From assembly GCA_016763335.1 (NCBI GenBank), contig JAESUD010000261.1:1-9189 (forward strand): a DNA stretch of 9,189 nt, read 5' to 3'. Under the pieces are notes generated by a model. The model was not told the DNA's origin, did no database searches, and saw only the letters and a list, made by a program, of their open reading frames with translations. Of this stretch, positions 324 through 9,177 are shown piece by piece. This stretch comes from Emcibacteraceae bacterium (GTDB lineage: Bacteria > Pseudomonadota > Alphaproteobacteria > Sphingomonadales > Emcibacteraceae). Made by a program: the position numbers and the translations under genes. Each line of letters opens with the position of its first letter. Positions within the stretch are counted from its first letter, which is position 1.

Positions 324-1577
324 TCATTCATCTAGTGAAATTTCGAGCCCTTCTATCGATTGTATTGCTTGTCCAGCAATGCCTTCCAAATCACCATACA
401 TTCCAACTGTTGCTTCTATAACTCCCTGAATTTGAGAGTCTCTTTTAGCCCATAACCGTGTCATGACCTTTCTTTCTTTGTTTAAATCGTCTTGCATCAT
501 AGAAAATTTTTCTACGATGGCTTCTATACGATGTCTAAATCGTGATCCCGTAAGATATTGGTAAACTTGTTCTGTTTTTGTTTGCTGCCCATCTTTGATA
601 AGCCGTGAGTTGTTGATTTCAATAAGCGATTGTCTCAGTGCAAATGCTAATGGCATGGCATATTTTTGCCCTGAAACCCAAGTTCCATCAATTTGCCCAA
701 AACTATCTATGCTTTTAGGTAAGCTATTAGACACAATAACAGCTATCTCAGAACCAGCCGATCTCTGATCTTCTCGCAGTTTTGATAACCAACCATCACT
801 CCAGTTTTTTGTTCGTTTTGTTTCCCAAATAATACTGCCGCACATTTGACCTGATGGAGAAACAATACGTTGGATAACATCTGCTCCAAATTCACCCTTT
901 GCAACGGGTTCAATAACATCAAACGGGAATTGAACTTTAAGGTTTTTTTCAAGTTCAAGTTCTAATACTTCACCTTGCAACTGCTGAGATCCCTGTTCGG
1001 ATTTTTGCTTTAAGCTTTCTATTTGACGTTGCATTGAAATAATTTGTTGCTCCTTTTCAGACACTTTCAGTTTCATACTTTCTTCTACGTCTCTCTTTAT
1101 TTTTAACCTCTCAGCATCGAGGCCAAATTGTATTTCTTGTTGTATTTTAAAATCCATTTCACGGGACTTATCGTCTAAAGCCCGTGTTTTTTGAATTAAG
1201 CTTACCTGTTTTTTTTGTGCCTCTCTAAGCTTTATTTCTCGTTCCTTTAAAACCTTTTGCAACTCATCAACTTCGTGTGATTTTTGATCCAAATCGTATT
1301 GAAAAGATAACTTTGCTCGCGTAGCTTCATTTTTAGAAATTTGTTTACGTTCTATATCCAGTTGCCTATCTACTTCTTGATATATTAGTTTTTCGGATTC
1401 CTTAACTGCAACACGTTTCTTTTCAAGAGATATTTCTCGTTCTTTAATATTTACTTGGCTATCAAGCAGGCGCTTTTCATACTCTGCTTTTGCTGCTGCA
1501 ACAAGAGGAGCTGCAATACCGTCTGTCAGCTTTATGGTCTCACCACAATTGGAGCATTTTATACTTGGCTCACTCAT
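324..1577 (-). CDS. DUF2130-type coiled-coil protein with putative PD-(D/E)XK nuclease core
   Basis: The product has 417 residues. It opens with one zinc-ribbon-like pair (C8-x-x-C11) and the run IAAPLVAAAKAEYE, as in DUF2130 proteins. A charged coiled coil runs from about 35 to 200. The C-terminal globular part carries E203/E206, D233 (in FGADVIQRI), E252-x-K254 (in IIWETKRTK) and Q271, a layout that fits a PD-(D/E)XK nuclease fold. The substrate is not known. The ATG at 1577 is two bases after the stop of the upstream RloC-like gene, and its ribosome site (AAAGGAG) lies inside that gene's last codons, so the two are probably translationally coupled. DUF2130 membership is a confident reading by eye. 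Nuclease activity and a role as RloC partner are inferences. The gene appears complete. No clear terminator was seen after it. Confidence 0.8.
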   Translation of the reverse strand: MSEPSIKCSNCGETIKLTDGIAAPLVAAAKAEYEKRLLDSQVNIKEREISLEKKRVAVKESEKLIYQEVDRQLDIERKQISKNEATRAKLSFQYDLDQKSHEVDELQKVLKEREIKLREAQKKQVSLIQKTRALDDKSREMDFKIQQEIQFGLDAERLKIKRDVEESMKLKVSEKEQQIISMQRQIESLKQKSEQGSQQLQGEVLELELEKNLKVQFPFDVIEPVAKGEFGADVIQRIVSPSGQMCGSIIWETKRTKNWSDGWLSKLREDQRSAGSEIAVIVSNSLPKSIDSFGQIDGTWVSGQKYAMPLAFALRQSLIEINNSRLIKDGQQTKTEQVYQYLTGSRFRHRIEAIVEKFSMMQDDLNKERKVMTRLWAKRDSQIQGVIEATVGMYGDLEGIAGQAIQSIEGLEISLDE

Positions 1578-1579
1578 AT

Positions 1580-3856
1580 TTATTCTACTCCTTTAATTTC
1601 AGCAGAAAGTGCAAGATTTTCCTCAACTGTAGGAGTAAGGTTAACACCTTTCGTCATCATTTCATAATGACCGATGTGTCCTGCTTTATTAAAAATATTC
1701 TTAAAAACAATGAGATATTTTTCTATGGTATTGGTATCACATGACGTATAGAGGTCGTCATTAATAGAATGTGAACCGTCATTAATCCACGATAGTAGAG
1801 AGCCACACACTATTTTGTCGTTTCCTGATAAACCATTTACAATTTCATCAGTGTTTATGCCACCAAAGAATGTGAAATATGTTTCTATAATCCTTCGCAT
1901 TACATTCTGTGCTGTTATAACAGATAATTCGGAACTACAAATTTCAGCCCATAGCATTTCATAAGATGATGTTACAGGGTTTTTTCCGTGTAGTTTTATT
2001 TTGGATTCACCATTTTTCTTTTGGACTGTCCAAAATGTAGGAGTATTTTCCTTCTTAGGAATTTTGCGTTCAAAAGTTATTTCTTTATGGAAATAAACGT
2101 TATGGGTTAGCGTTAATATTTGAACTATAGAAGAATTCCCGTTTCTAATTTTATTAATAACCCCTCTAATTAAATTACAAACGATAAATAAAACATCGCT
2201 ATCTAAGCTGGATACAGGGTCATCAAAAACAACAACCCGTGATGAGGCTAAACCATCCGTTTTGAGTGAGCCATCAATTAACTGATAAAAATATAAGAAG
2301 GTAATAAAAGACTTCTCACCTTCGCTGAGTGTTTCCTTTGCATCGGAGCCATCTGCCCTAGTAATTTTATAAAATCCTGGGTTTTCACTTTCAGCAAGTG
2401 AAAAGCTAGTAAAGCCAAAAGATAAAAGTAAACCGTTTATTTTATTAAGAGTAGGGTTAATACTCGTAATTTGGAGTTCTAAAGATTTAACTTCAGAACT
2501 AATTTGGCTTATTTTGGTTTTTTTTTCGGATATATTTGCTTTTATATCTGTGATAGTTTTTTTTGTGTTATTTATTTTCAGTTTAACTTTGTCGGCTTCA
2601 ACCTTAATATCTTCAATAATCCGTTTCCAAATTTCAGAAATTAATTGTTTTTTTCGTGCGTCTAAATTATCAATTGTTTGATTGTTACTTAGCGCTTTAA
2701 TATTTGCTTTTTGAATTTCATCAGAAATGTCTTCAATGACACCTGATATAGGCTCGAGCCTAATTTTTGAACTTGGTTCCTTTTTTTTGCTTTCAATGTG
2801 TTTTAAATTAACAGTTAACAAACTATCTAAACTCTTCTGTTTATCAATAACCTTGTCTTGATTTAAAAATTTTGGACTTGCATCTAAAATAGCCTTAAGT
2901 CGACTTTTCAATGAATCAGAAAAATCACTATACTTTTGACTCAGATCATCAATAGCTTCTAGATCGAGGGTGTAAGTACGATCAAAATACTCGTTTAAAC
3001 TGTTTTTAAAATCTTGTTCTGTTTTTTGTTGACAGAACGGACAATACTCGTCGTTTTTATTATAGAATGCTATTCCAGTTTGAACCCAATCGCTATTTCC
3101 AAGTGTGGTAATCATTGCTGCAATATCAACGTTGTCCTTTCCGAGCACAACTTTAGAAAGAACAGGAGTCTTTTCCAATTCTATGATGTCGTCATAAAGT
3201 AATTTTGGAATTAAATTTTCTTGTGATAAATCATCGGAAAACACGGATTGAGCCTGTTCTTTGATGATGTTAATTTCCAACAATTCGGCTGTATTATTTT
3301 CGACTTCTGAATCGTATTTACTTTTAAAAGTATCTTTCGTACCAGCACCCTTGAATACATTTTTGAACTCTTTGTATTCGGATTTTTTTTTCCAACACAT
3401 CTCTACAAGTTCGCTATCAAGATCAGTTTTTTCCTTTTCTTTACCTCCGTCACCATTGTCGCCGGCCAACACCTTTTTATAGTTGACAACTTTATCAGAT
3501 AGAACAGCAATATCATTATTTTTATCTTTTATTACTGCACTGACCTCCACATTATCGCCAAAAGTATAGATACCCATTACTTCTGCATTTGGATTAAAAT
3601 GTTTTTCAACAAAATCTCGATTATATACCAAAATTTCCATTGGATTACTTTGATGCCAGGCGACTTCACAGTTTGAGCCAATCGTATCTGCAGAAGGAGT
3701 TAATCTAATTTGATCCTGATTGGCTAAAACCCTTGAAATAGTGGTTTTTCCAGATCCATTTGAACCGTAAATAAAATTAATTTTTTTAAGGTCAAACATT
3801 TCTTGAGATTCAATTCCGTATGAACCTGTTTCTTTGATTGTAATTTTGGATATCAT
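1580..3856 (-). CDS. rloC: RloC-like ABC ATPase / zinc-hook anticodon nuclease
   Basis: RloC proteins are Rad50-like ATPases that cut tRNA in the anticodon loop, probably as a last-line antiviral or DNA-damage response. From the ATG at 3856 the product has 758 residues: Walker A GSNGSGKTT at about 31-39, coiled coil, a zinc-hook motif CPFC at 272-275, a second coiled coil to about 490, ABC signature LSEGEKS at 510-516, Walker B VVVFDDPVSSLD with DD at 545-546, and switch histidine H585 in LTHN. The C-terminus has MRRIIE with R654 and E658, and NDGSHS with H696. This R-x3-E...H arrangement resembles the PrrC/RloC catalytic triad. An in-frame TTG at 3922 would add 22 residues, but it lacks a ribosome site and family members begin near MISKITIK, so ATG 3856 was chosen, although its own ribosome site is weak. 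It heads an operon with the DUF2130 gene. The hsd genes often found beside rloC are absent from the window. Confidence 0.8.
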   Translation of the reverse strand: MISKITIKETGSYGIESQEMFDLKKINFIYGSNGSGKTTISRVLANQDQIRLTPSADTIGSNCEVAWHQSNPMEILVYNRDFVEKHFNPNAEVMGIYTFGDNVEVSAVIKDKNNDIAVLSDKVVNYKKVLAGDNGDGGKEKEKTDLDSELVEMCWKKKSEYKEFKNVFKGAGTKDTFKSKYDSEVENNTAELLEINIIKEQAQSVFSDDLSQENLIPKLLYDDIIELEKTPVLSKVVLGKDNVDIAAMITTLGNSDWVQTGIAFYNKNDEYCPFCQQKTEQDFKNSLNEYFDRTYTLDLEAIDDLSQKYSDFSDSLKSRLKAILDASPKFLNQDKVIDKQKSLDSLLTVNLKHIESKKKEPSSKIRLEPISGVIEDISDEIQKANIKALSNNQTIDNLDARKKQLISEIWKRIIEDIKVEADKVKLKINNTKKTITDIKANISEKKTKISQISSEVKSLELQITSINPTLNKINGLLLSFGFTSFSLAESENPGFYKITRADGSDAKETLSEGEKSFITFLYFYQLIDGSLKTDGLASSRVVVFDDPVSSLDSDVLFIVCNLIRGVINKIRNGNSSIVQILTLTHNVYFHKEITFERKIPKKENTPTFWTVQKKNGESKIKLHGKNPVTSSYEMLWAEICSSELSVITAQNVMRRIIETYFTFFGGINTDEIVNGLSGNDKIVCGSLLSWINDGSHSINDDLYTSCDTNTIEKYLIVFKNIFNKAGHIGHYEMMTKGVNLTPTVEENLALSAEIKGVE

Positions 3857-4276: not shown

Positions 4277-4432
4277 GCAGCGGTAACCATATATATTCCA
4301 CATGAAGTTATAGGTTTTTGTATTAAGGAGAATAAAAGTCTTATTGCAGCATGGCGTAGTTATGAAAACATAAGTCAGACTGAGCTTGCTCAAAAAGTAG
4401 GCGTTTCAAAGTTAGCACTTATTGAAATAGAA
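4277..4432 (+). pseudogene. Fragment of an XRE-type HTH antitoxin/regulator
   Basis: The frame reads TIYIPHEVIGFCIKENKSLI followed by AAWRSYENISQTELAQKVGV and SKLALIEIE. This matches the centre of Phd/Xre-type antitoxins: an IPHEV block, then AWR, then the HTH core (SQTELAQKVGVSKLALIEIE). An in-frame TGA at 4274-4276 closes it upstream, no start codon precedes it in frame, and the similarity ends at about 4432. After that the frame runs into hydrophobic sequence from AT-rich DNA. It is therefore a remnant of an antitoxin gene that lost both ends. The matching toxin was not found. The upstream stretch 4090-4265 may contain more decayed sequence but cannot be assigned. Confidence 0.6.
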
Positions 4433-4481
4433 CCGCCCATCTTTTATTTTTTTATCATCCATTTTGTCACTCTAATTTATT

Positions 4482-5249: not shown

Positions 5250-5268
5250 GGTGTGTAATATCACGAAT
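5250..5268 (+). repeat. Iteron 1 (class A)
   Basis: The sequence is GGTGTGTAATATCACGAAT, identical to the copies at 5272 and 5347. All five iterons fit the consensus GGTGTGTAAWRTCMYGAA. Confidence 0.85.
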
Positions 5269-5271
5269 GGA

Positions 5272-5290
5272 GGTGTGTAATATCACGAAT
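5272..5290 (+). repeat. Iteron 2 (class A)
   Basis: GGTGTGTAATATCACGAAT starts 22 bases after the start of iteron 1, about two helical turns, so both face the same side of the DNA. Confidence 0.85.
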
Positions 5291-5316
5291 CTAACTTCAA
5301 TACATTTTATCTACTT

Positions 5317-5335
5317 GGTGTGTAAAGTCCTGAAA
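5317..5335 (+). repeat. Iteron 3 (class B)
   Basis: GGTGTGTAAAGTCCTGAAA shares the first nine bases with class A but differs by a co-ordinated block (AGTCCTGA in place of TATCACGA). It starts 45 bases after iteron 2. Confidence 0.8.
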
Positions 5336-5346
5336 AATATTGACGT

Positions 5347-5365
5347 GGTGTGTAATATCACGAAT
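5347..5365 (+). repeat. Iteron 4 (class A)
   Basis: GGTGTGTAATATCACGAAT starts 30 bases after iteron 3 and is a perfect class A copy. Confidence 0.85.
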
Positions 5366-5376
5366 AGTAGGAATCA

Positions 5377-5395
5377 GGTGTGTAAAGTCCTGAAC
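5377..5395 (+). repeat. Iteron 5 (class B)
   Basis: GGTGTGTAAAGTCCTGAAC starts 30 bases after iteron 4 and about 60 bases before the repA start codon. It is the copy best placed to overlap the repA promoter. Confidence 0.8.
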
Positions 5396-5455: not shown

Positions 5456-6526
5456 ATGAACCAAGAACTAGAAAAATATGACCGCACACCTCTTCTACCT
5501 GAAAGACACCCAGAACCAGATTTTTTTATTTGTGACATTTTCGATGCCGCGCCAAAGTCTGATACCGCTTCAATGGAACATCCATTATTTACGCTCGCAA
5601 CTAAACCCGATATGACAGACCGCATGTATCAGAATGGCGACAGCTATATACGCTTACGTCCATCCCCTGACGGATTGGCAACTGTTCATGATCGAGACAT
5701 TTTAATTTACTGTATTTCCCAATGCATGCACCGATTAAACAATGGGCAACAAGTACACAAAACGCTTAGATTCAATGCTCATGACCTCTTAAAGGTCACC
5801 AATCGCGACACAAGCAAAAGAGGTTATGCGCTTCTTAAAACAGCACTTGGCCGCCTTCAGGGGACACAGATAGAAACAAATGTTACAACTGGTGGGCTTG
5901 AACAAACAGATCTATTCAGCTTCATAGATAGAGCCAAATTTATAAGAGAGACCCATGATGGCCGTATGCAAGGATTAGAAATAACCCTTTCTGATTGGGT
6001 GTTTAATGCTATGCACGAGAAAAGCGGTGACATACTTACCCTGTCTAAAGATTATTTCAGGCTAAGGAAGCCGTTAGAGCGTCGCTTGTACGAGTTAGCT
6101 CGAAAATGTTGCGGTCAGTCCTCTAAGTGGCATTTTCGCGTTGAAACGCTTCACAAACGGACGGGGTCCACATCCAGACCAAAAGAATTCAAGCGGATGC
6201 TGAAAAAAATCATTGATGATAATGACAAACATCAGCATATTCCAGATTATACTTTTAAAATGGAAGATAATCTTGTTGTTATTCGTCCTCGTGGGGAGTT
6301 TTCAGAGATCTATAAAGAACCTGAAAGCGTGGATGCTATAGATAAAATTTTCTTGGCACCAAAAACGTTTGATATTGCCCGTAAATTTGCAGGGGGATAC
6401 GATCTCTATTTTTTAGAAAGTCAATGGCGCGAAATGCTGACATCCAAAAACGCCATACCAGAGAATGTCGATGCTTCATTCATGGGCTACGTTAAATGGT
6501 ACATAACAAAACATGGCAAAGCATAA
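5456..6526 (+). CDS. repA: Replication initiator protein A (RPA/RepA family)
   Basis: The product of 356 residues has the RPA-family (replication initiator protein A) pattern: a front part with SMEHPLFTL at about 39-47, then SYIRLRPSPDGLATVHDRDI (63-82), LIYCISQCM, and the HTH-containing segment FNAHDLLKVTNRDTSKRGYA followed by LLKTALGRLQGTQIETNV up to about 143. The second half, with LSKDYFRLRKPLERRLYELA (196-215), resembles a second winged-helix region of initiators. It should bind the upstream iterons and open the origin for theta replication with host factors. The ATG at 5456 has only a weak GAAG ribosome site, consistent with low expression. The gene appears full length and undamaged. 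It converges on the recombinase gene. Family assignment is confident; iteron binding is inferred from position. Confidence 0.9.
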   Translation: MNQELEKYDRTPLLPERHPEPDFFICDIFDAAPKSDTASMEHPLFTLATKPDMTDRMYQNGDSYIRLRPSPDGLATVHDRDILIYCISQCMHRLNNGQQVHKTLRFNAHDLLKVTNRDTSKRGYALLKTALGRLQGTQIETNVTTGGLEQTDLFSFIDRAKFIRETHDGRMQGLEITLSDWVFNAMHEKSGDILTLSKDYFRLRKPLERRLYELARKCCGQSSKWHFRVETLHKRTGSTSRPKEFKRMLKKIIDDNDKHQHIPDYTFKMEDNLVVIRPRGEFSEIYKEPESVDAIDKIFLAPKTFDIARKFAGGYDLYFLESQWREMLTSKNAIPENVDASFMGYVKWYITKHGKA

Positions 6527-7165: not shown

Positions 7166-7197
7166 AATTGAAACTTAGCCCCTGAAACTACATTTTA

Positions 7198-7237
7198 ATA
7201 TTATGTAACATTATTAATAAATAGTGTTACATAATAT
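7198..7237. promoter_or_regulatory. Long palindrome at the dinJ start, probable antitoxin operator
   Basis: Two 18-bp arms (7198-7215 and 7220-7237) pair with one mismatch around four bases. The core is ATGTAACA..TGTTACAT. It covers the space between the recombinase start (7165) and the dinJ-like start, and overlaps the GTG proposed for dinJ. RelB/DinJ-type ribbon-helix-helix antitoxins bind palindromes with TGTAA half-sites. A nearly identical palindrome sits at 8084-8116, and a single half-site (TTGTAACATTATT) at 7583-7595 follows the toxin remnant. Confidence 0.65.
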
Positions 7238-7460
7238 CATTTATTTAAGTCCAAAATTAAAAGCTCAAGCAGAAAGTGTTTTTTCTCAAATGGGAATGAA
7301 CACAGCCGATGCTATACGTATGTTTTTACAGCAAACTGTAAATGATGGTGGACTATCATTTCAACCTCATACCAAAACTATAGCTGCTTTCTCTGAAGTT
7401 GAAGACAACCAGTCAACTGAAGTGTCTTTGGATGACTTGCGTCGTGAAATGGAATTATAA
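7224..7460 (+). CDS. dinJ: DinJ/RelB-family antitoxin, orphan
   Basis: The product has up to 78 residues. It shows the ribbon-helix-helix signature of DinJ/RelB antitoxins: a short strand (NIIYLS), then PKLKAQAESVFSQMGMNTAD and AIRMFLQQTVNDGGLSF (about 10-46), followed by an acidic C-terminal tail (SLDDLRREMEL) that would normally wrap the toxin. E. coli DinJ is slightly longer (86 residues). No ATG precedes the homology. The only plausible start is GTG at 7224 inside the palindrome, without a ribosome site, so the 5' end may have been altered by recombination, or the start may be weak. The partner yafQ begins two bases after the stop but is broken. The protein could survive as a regulator, since its likely operator is present twice. 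Family assignment is confident; the start is uncertain. Confidence 0.75.
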   Translation: MLHNIIYLSPKLKAQAESVFSQMGMNTADAIRMFLQQTVNDGGLSFQPHTKTIAAFSEVEDNQSTEVSLDDLRREMEL

Positions 7461-7462
7461 AA

Positions 7463-7580
7463 GTGCTCCAAATAAATCAAACATCCCAGTTTAAACGCGA
7501 TGTTAAAATTAATAAAGCAACAAAAGAACCTTGAAGAGTTGTTTCTTGCTAGAAGTGGTAGTCATTCAGAGTTATTTTAG
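7463..7580 (+). pseudogene. yafQ: YafQ-family toxin, frameshifted and internally deleted
   Basis: From GTG 7463 the frame reads VLQINQTSQFKRDVK, the start of YafQ-type mRNA-interferase toxins (MLQI..T.QFKRD.K). It then leaves the family pattern and stops at TGA 7532-7534. After a shift at the A-run 7505-7508, another frame continues as KLIKQQKNLEEL and then jumps directly to FLARSGSHSELF, the family's C-terminus, with TAG at 7578-7580. About 50-60 central residues, including most of the catalytic fold, are missing; YafQ is normally about 92 residues. Position two bases after dinJ is exactly as in intact dinJ-yafQ operons. The toxin is therefore inactive. The reconstruction is by eye, but both ends are characteristic. 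Confidence 0.8.
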
Positions 7581-7647
7581 CTTTGTAACATTATTTGTGA
7601 ATTGAAGTGCAAAACTATGCTCCCTATTTTTATCAAATAAGGGGTGG

Positions 7648-8040
7648 TTAGCGTGAGCATAAACTGCACAAATTAAAACCAACACTAATTATTCCTAACA
7701 AGATACTAAACGCTGCTAGCTGTGCTGGAATTCGAACAGATGGATCAGGTGAGAAAAAATACCAACAAAGGCGTTCTAAAAGACAAGCATTTTCTAGCTT
7801 GAAATCCAATTCGTCATCAATATCTACTTTAAGTGCTTCACGAATATCAATTGGCATAGAAATGGCATCTTCTTCCTTAAAGCCAAGCAGCATCACTATT
7901 ATTGATTCTTTAGAGCCATTATTTTTAATTATTTTCGCAAGGCTATAGCGTTTAAATTTGTTTCGGTGTTTAAAGTTAAGCCTAACTAGAATTCGTCCAT
8001 TATTACTGTTTGACAAAGTAGTAACTTTGAGCTTTGGCAT
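7648..8040 (-). CDS. Small membrane-anchored protein with an AbrB-like segment, function unknown
   Basis: The family is not recognised with certainty. From the ATG at 8040 the product has 130 residues. Residues 1-60 look soluble and basic. Residues 60-82 (AISMPIDIREALKVDIDDEL and onwards) resemble the AbrB/SpoVT swapped-hairpin pattern (IxIPxxIRExLxxxxGDxLxF). Then come a motif WYFFSPDPSVRIPA (93-106) and one hydrophobic segment (about 107-125) that should be a C-terminal membrane anchor. ATG 8040 was preferred over the upstream in-frame GTG (8094) and ATG (8058) because AAGGA precedes it at a good distance. The gene is preceded by the perfect palindrome 8084-8116, nearly the same as the dinJ operator. 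A regulatory link to dinJ is inferred from that alone. Confidence 0.6.
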   Translation of the reverse strand: MPKLKVTTLSNSNNGRILVRLNFKHRNKFKRYSLAKIIKNNGSKESIIVMLLGFKEEDAISMPIDIREALKVDIDDELDFKLENACLLERLCWYFFSPDPSVRIPAQLAAFSILLGIISVGFNLCSLCSR

Positions 8041-8083
8041 TTTATATTCCTTCAACATTTTTACTTGATTATTCTTGCACCGC

Positions 8084-8116
8084 TTATGTAACACTATTAC
8101 TAATAGTGTTACATAA
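8084..8116. promoter_or_regulatory. Perfect palindrome upstream of the membrane-protein gene
   Basis: TTATGTAACACTATTA (8084-8099) and its exact complement (8101-8116) flank a single central base. It is a near copy of the palindrome at the dinJ-like gene. A candidate -10 (TATTAT, minus strand, 8113-8118) overlaps the outer arm, so a bound protein would block this promoter. The -35 is not convincing. Nothing else was recognised between 8117 and 8223. Confidence 0.6.
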
Positions 8117-8223
8117 TATTAAAATTGCCAGTACTTTAAGCATATAGATAACTGCATTAATCTGTTCCATAGAAGCTGACGATTTACACGTTTGCTAACC
8201 AAAAACAAGACCTACATATAAAA

Positions 8224-9063
8224 TTAAATATTGATTGAAAGCATCCATTTTTCAGAGAAGGTGCTCTTATATTTTTTACTAGGGTCAAGTCGACGGCTAC
8301 CTCCACGTTGTGCAAAAATTTTCCAATTTTCAACAATTGGATTCTTAATGTTTAATCTTTCTTCTATAATATAACCGGCTCTAACTTTTATGATTTTAGT
8401 ACCGTAATTTTCGATTTTATCTATGATATCTTCAATATGATGAATGGCATGGTTATCCCAAATCTTTAGAACATGACTAATTCCACCGCAAAATTGGGGT
8501 TTATCCAGGGTATCAAAAAAAGTTCTAGGGATATTTGAAATATTTATGAACTGACGCTTAGTTTTATCATCTATTTTTGAGCTTCTGTGAATGAACAGCT
8601 TTGTTTCCCCTATAGTATTGGGATGGCTTGTTGTACTATACAATGGCATAGCGTTCAAAGTATTAAGCTTTTCTTTTTGAGAATTTGCAACAGAAATAGT
8701 TAAATGCAAAAAATCTGATTTAACTTCTGTGAATTTATATTCATATAATGCAGATAAGTGAGAAATAGATGCTAATGGATCAGCTAAACAGACTTTTTCT
8801 TGAGCTGATAACGTACGATATTTTTGTAATTTCCACATCCGTGAATAATGGTAATCCTTTGCTATTATATTTTCTTCAGTTAGCAGCTCTAATATTTTAC
8901 TTTGCGTAAGAACATCAAAACAACATTCATTCCGATCACAAACGTTAGAAATTTTTTTTTCAATGTAATAATTCGAAAAAAGAGGGACACCATCAACAAT
9001 CAATTGATTCATAACAGACATTGCAATATTAGTTATTTTAATTCTTTCCCGGAACGGTTCCAT
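8224..9063 (-). CDS. AbiEi-like antitoxin / transcriptional regulator
   Basis: The 279-residue product resembles AbiEi antitoxins of type IV (AbiE) toxin-antitoxin systems. The N-terminal part (about 10-90) looks like a helical, winged-helix-type DNA-binding domain. ADPLASISHLSALYEYKFTE (94-113) matches the 'SHxSAL' region of the family. The C-terminal half has PRTFFDTLDKPQFCGGI (179-195), RAGYIIEERLNI (228-239) and RGGSRRLDPSKKY with a final FSEKWMLSINI, typical of the AbiEi C-terminal domain. AbiEi normally neutralises, and represses together with, the nucleotidyltransferase toxin AbiEii encoded directly downstream. Here no such gene follows; the next gene is the unrelated membrane protein. 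It is therefore an orphan, a solitary regulator, or has a partner outside the window. The ATG at 9063 lies only six bases from a TATAAT box. Confidence 0.65.
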   Translation of the reverse strand: MEPFRERIKITNIAMSVMNQLIVDGVPLFSNYYIEKKISNVCDRNECCFDVLTQSKILELLTEENIIAKDYHYSRMWKLQKYRTLSAQEKVCLADPLASISHLSALYEYKFTEVKSDFLHLTISVANSQKEKLNTLNAMPLYSTTSHPNTIGETKLFIHRSSKIDDKTKRQFINISNIPRTFFDTLDKPQFCGGISHVLKIWDNHAIHHIEDIIDKIENYGTKIIKVRAGYIIEERLNIKNPIVENWKIFAQRGGSRRLDPSKKYKSTFSEKWMLSINI

Positions 9064-9075: not shown

Positions 9076-9085
9076 ACCTTACTGA

Positions 9086-9134
9086 CATCAGTGACCTACA
9101 TTGCGTCCTAAGGACGCAATGTAGGTCACTGATG
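9086..9134. repeat. 49-bp perfect palindrome
   Basis: Arms of 24 bp (9086-9109 and 9111-9134) pair perfectly around one base (A9110). The centre reads GCGTCCTAAGGACGC. It lies 23 bases upstream of the AbiEi-like gene, over its expected -35 region. Perfect palindromes of this length with almost no spacer are rare because they form cruciforms and tend to be deleted. Confidence 0.85.
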
Positions 9135-9135
9135 C

Positions 9136-9177
9136 CTGCAAGTCAAGACATCATTTCATTTTTTTCTTGACTTGCAG
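9136..9177. repeat. 13-bp stem-loop next to the long palindrome
   Basis: CTGCAAGTCAAGA (9136-9148) and TCTTGACTTGCAG (9165-9177) pair perfectly around a 16-base loop rich in T. It starts one base after the long palindrome ends. Confidence 0.75.

Follow-up and report, generated by a model that had tools for sequence, protein, structure and literature searches.

A coupled pair of RloC-type and DUF2130 genes on an Emcibacteraceae plasmid contig, a candidate antiviral module

An RloC-type gene followed by a DUF2130 gene

We analyzed a 9,189-base contig (C197; hereafter the window, meaning this whole stretch) of a 2.89-Mb, 371-contig Emcibacteraceae assembly, which carries on its minus strand adjacent genes for an RloC-type ATPase, a predicted anticodon nuclease, and for a protein of the DUF2130 family. 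An earlier reading of the sequence alone had proposed a two-gene operon here, with the second start two bases past the first stop and its ribosome site inside the first gene; both open reading frames were found where it placed them and the junction is as it described. The TAA stop of the ATPase gene (1582-1580) is followed after two bases by the DUF2130 ATG (1577-1575), and AAAGGAG (1594-1588) falls in the last codons of the ATPase gene, 10 nucleotides ahead of that ATG. The ATPase gene likely starts at ATG 3856, since it is there that most relatives begin, with MIE or a similar sequence; the longer frame of the open reading frame program begins at TTG 3922.

1580..3856, minus strand: RloC-type ATPase and predicted anticodon nuclease, 758 residues (open reading frame, Pfam)
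324..1577, minus strand: DUF2130 protein, 417 residues, predicted PD-(D/E)XK nuclease with a long coiled coil (PF09903 match, structure model, fold matches)
1588..1594, minus strand: AAAGGAG ribosome site for the DUF2130 gene, within the ATPase gene (read in the sequence)

The first product matches Pfam AAA_13 (E = 1.7 × 10−164) and has the defining features of RloC, namely ATPase motifs and, within the ATPase domain, a helical insert bearing a CX2C zinc hook; residues 102-479, between Walker A and the signature, are mostly helical in the structure model. The Walker A and B motifs, ABC signature, CPFC hook and R-x3-E...H residues picked out by the sequence-only reading are conserved across alignment rows, as follows.

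3743..3766, minus strand: Walker A, residues 31-38 (G36 and K37 in 83/83 rows)
3032..3043, minus strand: zinc hook CPFC, residues 272-275 (C272 and C275 both in 83/83 rows)
2315..2329, minus strand: ABC signature LSEGE, residues 510-514 (S511, E512 and E514 invariant in alignment A5)
2219..2233, minus strand: Walker B VVFDD, residues 542-546 (D545 in 83/83 rows, D546 in 82/83)
1883..1897, minus strand: anticodon-nuclease motif R654-x3-E658 (each in 79/83 rows; in register with the PrrC R-x3-E)
1769..1771, minus strand: anticodon-nuclease H696, preceded by S695 (64/83 rows)

In an 82-row set (the window, 80 genome loci and one viral-contig locus, L115), the Walker A GK, both hook cysteines, the signature glutamate, the Walker B DD and R654/E658/H696 were all intact in 76 rows. 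Published RloC proteins share the helical insert with a CxxC hook that splits the ABC ATPase and the C-terminal R-x3-E-x37-SH (PMC2610378, PMC3874168), and the window protein falls within their reported length range of 658-897 residues (PMC2610378). The spacing R654-x3-E658-x37-H696, with S695, fits the published Arg-X3-Glu-X36-52-His, often SerHis. When aligned with PrrC by hhalign (14 of 15 PrrC loci), the R-x3-E and SH residues fell in register at weak significance (E = 0.042, probability 1.2%), and a PrrC profile scored 47.8 bits over residues 424-700. The C-terminal domain thus fits the RloC motif, and its relation to PrrC, the other part of the alignment named for checking, shows in the register of these residues at weak statistics. 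The head is predicted to be Rad50-like; the fold matches of the structure model include Rad50, along with chains from the structures of Lamassu LmuACB, retron IA and AriA-Ocr. Separately, a group of RloC-like proteins from viral contigs (L112-L163) mostly retains R-x3-E and lacks the usual histidine in the alignment.

The second product matches DUF2130 (PF09903; E = 2.3 × 10−76, 256.9 bits against a curated cut-off of 26.7). Its structure model (predicted local distance difference test score, pLDDT, 82.1) predicts a PD-(D/E)XK nuclease fold with a core of helix, three strands, helix and strand, in which strand 2 bears the conserved D and strand 3 the (D/E)xK. The CxxC, coiled coil and D-ExK attributed to this protein earlier can be upheld as conserved residues and, for the coiled coil, as a prediction from the model helix; the core, singled out for checking, is modeled as PD-(D/E)XK.

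1545..1556, minus strand: CSNC, residues 8-11 (C8 in 64/65 rows, C11 in 65/65)
930..1475, minus strand: long helix, predicted coiled coil, residues 35-216 (DSSP of the model)
615..998, minus strand: PD-(D/E)XK core, residues 194-321 (span of fold matches)
879-881, minus strand: D233 (65/65 rows)
816-824, minus strand: E252-x-K254 (65/65 rows each)

C8, C11, E206, D233, E252 and K254 were jointly intact in 79 rows of an 85-row set that includes some near copies and the window itself twice; E252 is replaced by D in three of these rows.

Recurrence of the pair and its neighbors

Scanning reference genomes with the ATPase alignment, and taking the best 80 of 346 relatives, we found DUF2130 in the fetched stretch of 12 RloC loci (L004, L006, L008, L012, L026, L030, L040, L055 and L057, with the longer type at L061, L067 and L069). 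This count is a lower bound, because in 23 of the 80 stretches one flank or both are shorter than 1.5 kb. Whole-genome searches of the same set with PF09903 yielded 24 copies in 21 of 78 genomes (10/38 and 11/40), 12 of them beside RloC, where uniform placement over rounded genome sizes, with islands not modeled, would put 0.09. Among viral contigs (best 80 of 92 RloC relatives), one locus, L115, adjoins DUF2130. Together with the window these make 14 pairs, all of them same-strand, with RloC first in seven and DUF2130 first in seven; intergenic gaps ranged from −14 to 132 bp in 13 of them, and at L012 an HsdR gene lies between the two with a 4-bp overlap on each side. Direct same-strand abutment, in both gene orders, held in 11 of the 12 genome pairs, so that the adjacency flagged for counting does recur, co-oriented, in other genomes. 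The nearest relatives of the window proteins (P0122 with P0001, P0123 with P0005) lie on contigs of matching size, a hint that these, too, may form pairs.

Paired rows do not cluster on the RloC tree but are spread over it, so that the paired state needs at least nine changes among rows of known context. The DUF2130 tree holds an RloC-first group that includes the window (five paired, one unpaired, two of unknown context), a DUF2130-first group (five paired, two unpaired, support 86) and the long type (three paired, four unpaired), with L115 apart. Partner distances were correlated over all 14 pairs (Spearman 0.44, P = 0.012) and more tightly over the ten main-type pairs, with four divergent rows left out (Spearman 0.91, P = 0.0002).

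Restriction-modification-like genes, sought with ten query proteins and counted after self hits had been dropped, turned up in six of the 12 RloC stretches with DUF2130 and in 16 of the 68 without it. Neighbors at paired loci include HsdR (L004, L012), SNF2 helicases (L006, L026), a methylase (L026), type III Mod and Res (L115) and KilA-N (L057). One could suppose that the two genes merely travel with restriction loci and have no joint function, a reading that the six restriction-associated pairs and the many other neighbors of DUF2130 would favor. We consider it improbable: the same queries found a restriction-modification-like gene in only one of 12 unpaired DUF2130 stretches from the same genomes, and therefore shared restriction islands explain the pairing poorly, as they do the direct same-strand abutment in both orders and the congruent distances.

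Within a set of 78 DUF2130 genes, which leaves out the window and is biased by the way it was collected, 12 directly abut RloC. A Pfam scan of 30 proteins adjoining or near DUF2130 revealed a second kind of ATPase pairing, with OLD/AAA_15-type genes (L227, L235, L215, L169; 2-23 bp apart or overlapping by 14 bp, taking longest frames), as well as AAA ATPases (L167, L174, L230), a SIR2_2 protein (L226), N6_N4 methylases (L182, L219) and a HerA-like gene (L182). By eye, a second, weakly AAA_13-like ATPase family also seems to lie near DUF2130 (L213, L187). Of the DUF2130 copies without RloC on viral contigs (L190-L210), 13 of 16 tree rows fall into one group, and some of their neighbors resemble, by eye, phage polymerase or methylase genes. 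The long type (about 470 residues; L178-L189, L212-L240) is often without RloC, in surroundings that by eye look housekeeping-like. The family may also act outside defense.

Possible joint action of the two proteins

The pairing of RloC with DUF2130, which recurs in distantly related bacteria, is likely to reflect one antiviral device. In the mechanism that we favor, to which we assign a probability of roughly 0.42, the window carries, on a plasmid, a module of two genes that is likely antiviral. DNA ends would be made or held by DUF2130, a predicted DNA nuclease, and sensed by the predicted Rad50-like head of RloC, and RloC would then cleave tRNA anticodons and so stop translation. Published RloC is a tRNase that excises the wobble nucleotide (PMC2610378, PMC3874168); its activity requires linear DNA, and DNA-break inducers activate it even in mutants deficient in restriction-modification (PMC3874168). 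We propose this relay because a neighbor with a nuclease fold would supply the ends that RloC needs. Such a relay would account for the nearness of about half of the pairs to genes for restriction-modification enzymes, which likewise break foreign DNA. It would also allow the pair to function by itself in the genome of the window, where no HsdS (Methylase_S) match was found at 90.6% completeness, a result that fits a module independent of a type I enzyme. We infer that DUF2130 cuts DNA, that its products activate RloC and that phage is the target. The sequence-only reading is partly supported, in that none of the three results it named as refuting appeared; the role it offered for DUF2130, as a sensor that works with RloC or as a second effector, with the pair acting on phage, may apply.

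Several observations weigh against this relay. Only a minority of either family is found in the pair: DUF2130 was missing from the stretches of 68 of the 80 genome RloC loci (the 80 include the 23 with a short flank), from 79 of the 80 viral-contig loci and from the three RloC relatives inspected on plasmids, and of the 24 DUF2130 copies in RloC genomes, 12 have no adjacent RloC. Forty-six plasmid records carry a DUF2130 relative, and all 11 of the regions viewed lacked an RloC match in the stretch. Across 398 genomes of the phylum, DUF2130 matched in 33 (31 above cut-off) and AAA_13 above cut-off in 60; 29 had AAA_13 at about 100 bits or more, two of these also had DUF2130, and only the window was paired, while one further genome (G335) has, at 2.2 kb from its DUF2130 gene, a partial AAA_13 match of 38 bits. 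The groups of paired copies on the DUF2130 tree include unpaired copies, the alignment shows no catalytic histidine in the RloC of the L115 pair, and Foldseek alone returned no match for the DUF2130 model at E ≤ 0.001. Published RloCs answer DNA breaks without DUF2130.

The strongest alternative, though on balance unlikely, is a stable assembly like Rad50-Mre11 or the SMC-like subunits of Lamassu with LmuA, in which the RloC head would restrain DUF2130 and free its DNA nuclease on binding DNA ends, with tRNA cutting as a second arm. The structural matches of the RloC model, the predicted nuclease fold of DUF2130 and its abutment with OLD/AAA_15-type ATPase genes all point this way; the absence of DUF2130 from most RloC loci seen and the variable gene order do not.

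Rather more doubtful is a silencer role, in which DUF2130 would keep the anticodon nuclease inactive and its removal by phage would lift the block, in the way the restriction enzyme PrrI silences PrrC. Cognate silencing partners for RloC were suggested by Davidov and Kaufmann (PMC2610378), DUF2130 is a translation-coupled downstream gene in the window, and the genome yields no HsdS match. However, the invariance of D233, E252 and K254 in 65/65 rows fits an enzyme, DUF2130 lies upstream in half of the pairs, and most RloC loci seen do without it.

Also doubtful, and slightly more so, is a wider scheme in which DUF2130 would be a general plug-in DNA nuclease serving defense effectors of several kinds: the break-sensing RloC tRNases, AAA ATPases including the OLD type, SIR2-like proteins and restriction loci of types I and III. 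In the RloC pair, its N-terminal CxxC, at the tip of the coiled coil, would share a zinc ion with the RloC hook, and this mixed zinc hook would hold the tRNase off until DNA is cut. Very improbable is a pair for DNA repair or plasmid maintenance, with DUF2130 trimming ends, RloC pausing translation and phage not the main target: the response of Acinetobacter baylyi RloC to nalidixic acid (PMC3874168) and the location beside plasmid replication genes would suit it, but pairs lie near restriction-modification genes and one sits in a viral contig.

Plasmid setting, related systems and meaning

Judging from its sequence, the window is a plasmid: a Pfam scan places an RPA/Rep3 initiator at 5456-6526, and five iteron-like repeats lie at 5250-5394. 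The closest plasmid Rep is from Labrenzia (61% identity), which makes a host among the Alphaproteobacteria likely, and a search for plasmid DNA similar to the window found none. The window also encodes a tyrosine recombinase and carries the gene of a RelB-type antitoxin. The latter (7224-7460) lies, with an open reading frame (7648-8094) that has a weak, sub-threshold MazE match, in a unit at 7192-8125 flanked by a 29-nucleotide inverted repeat (93%); no toxin gene was among the eight window open reading frames scanned. An open reading frame of 279 residues at 8224-9063 had no Pfam or NCBIfam match and a weak PHROG match, and just beyond it lies a 32-nucleotide inverted repeat (9078-9142, 91% complementary, 1-nucleotide loop). 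The A+T-rich gap upstream of the ATPase gene (about 4330-4440) looks by eye like the remnant of a helix-turn-helix gene; no open reading frame of 60 residues spans it.

The window ATPase scores 842 bits against one model of the PADLOC candidate PDC-S06, which a published account lists as a single gene; DUF2130 matched no PADLOC model at E ≤ 1. RloCs have been described alone, as the sequence-only reading noted, and in a few cases at restriction loci (PMC2610378, PMC3874168), whereas that of the window is translationally coupled to DUF2130. PrrC, too, is a tRNA-cutting ABC-HEPN protein beside DNA-acting genes, and tRNA cutting by the window protein is predicted; in contrast to it, PrrC has no zinc-hook insert (PMC2610378) and belongs with a complete hsd locus. 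A type I restriction-modification locus linked in the PrrC manner was not found among the eight window open reading frames scanned, nor did the 90.6% complete genome yield an HsdS match.

Lamassu, retron/Septu-type pairs and Mre11-Rad50 share with the window an SMC-like ATPase and a separate nuclease, according to fold matches. Their ATPases are not known to have a ribonuclease of their own, whereas the window ATPase carries a predicted tRNase. RmuC resembles DUF2130 in having a coiled coil and then a PD-(D/E)XK-like domain; no search here linked the two. A Streptococcus thermophilus study lists RloC, which was not assayed there (PMC12322248). The literature searched on RloC, DUF2130/COG4487 and PDC-S06, with subscription papers and preprints outside the search, does not mention the pairing in its accessible text, and yielded no functional study of the widespread DUF2130/COG4487 family.

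So far RloC has been regarded as a sensor of breaks that needs no partner. A recurrent partner with a nuclease fold, if true, would supply the upstream step, and a coupled DNA-then-tRNA defense would be testable with two genes. The pairing would then also be the first functional setting for DUF2130.
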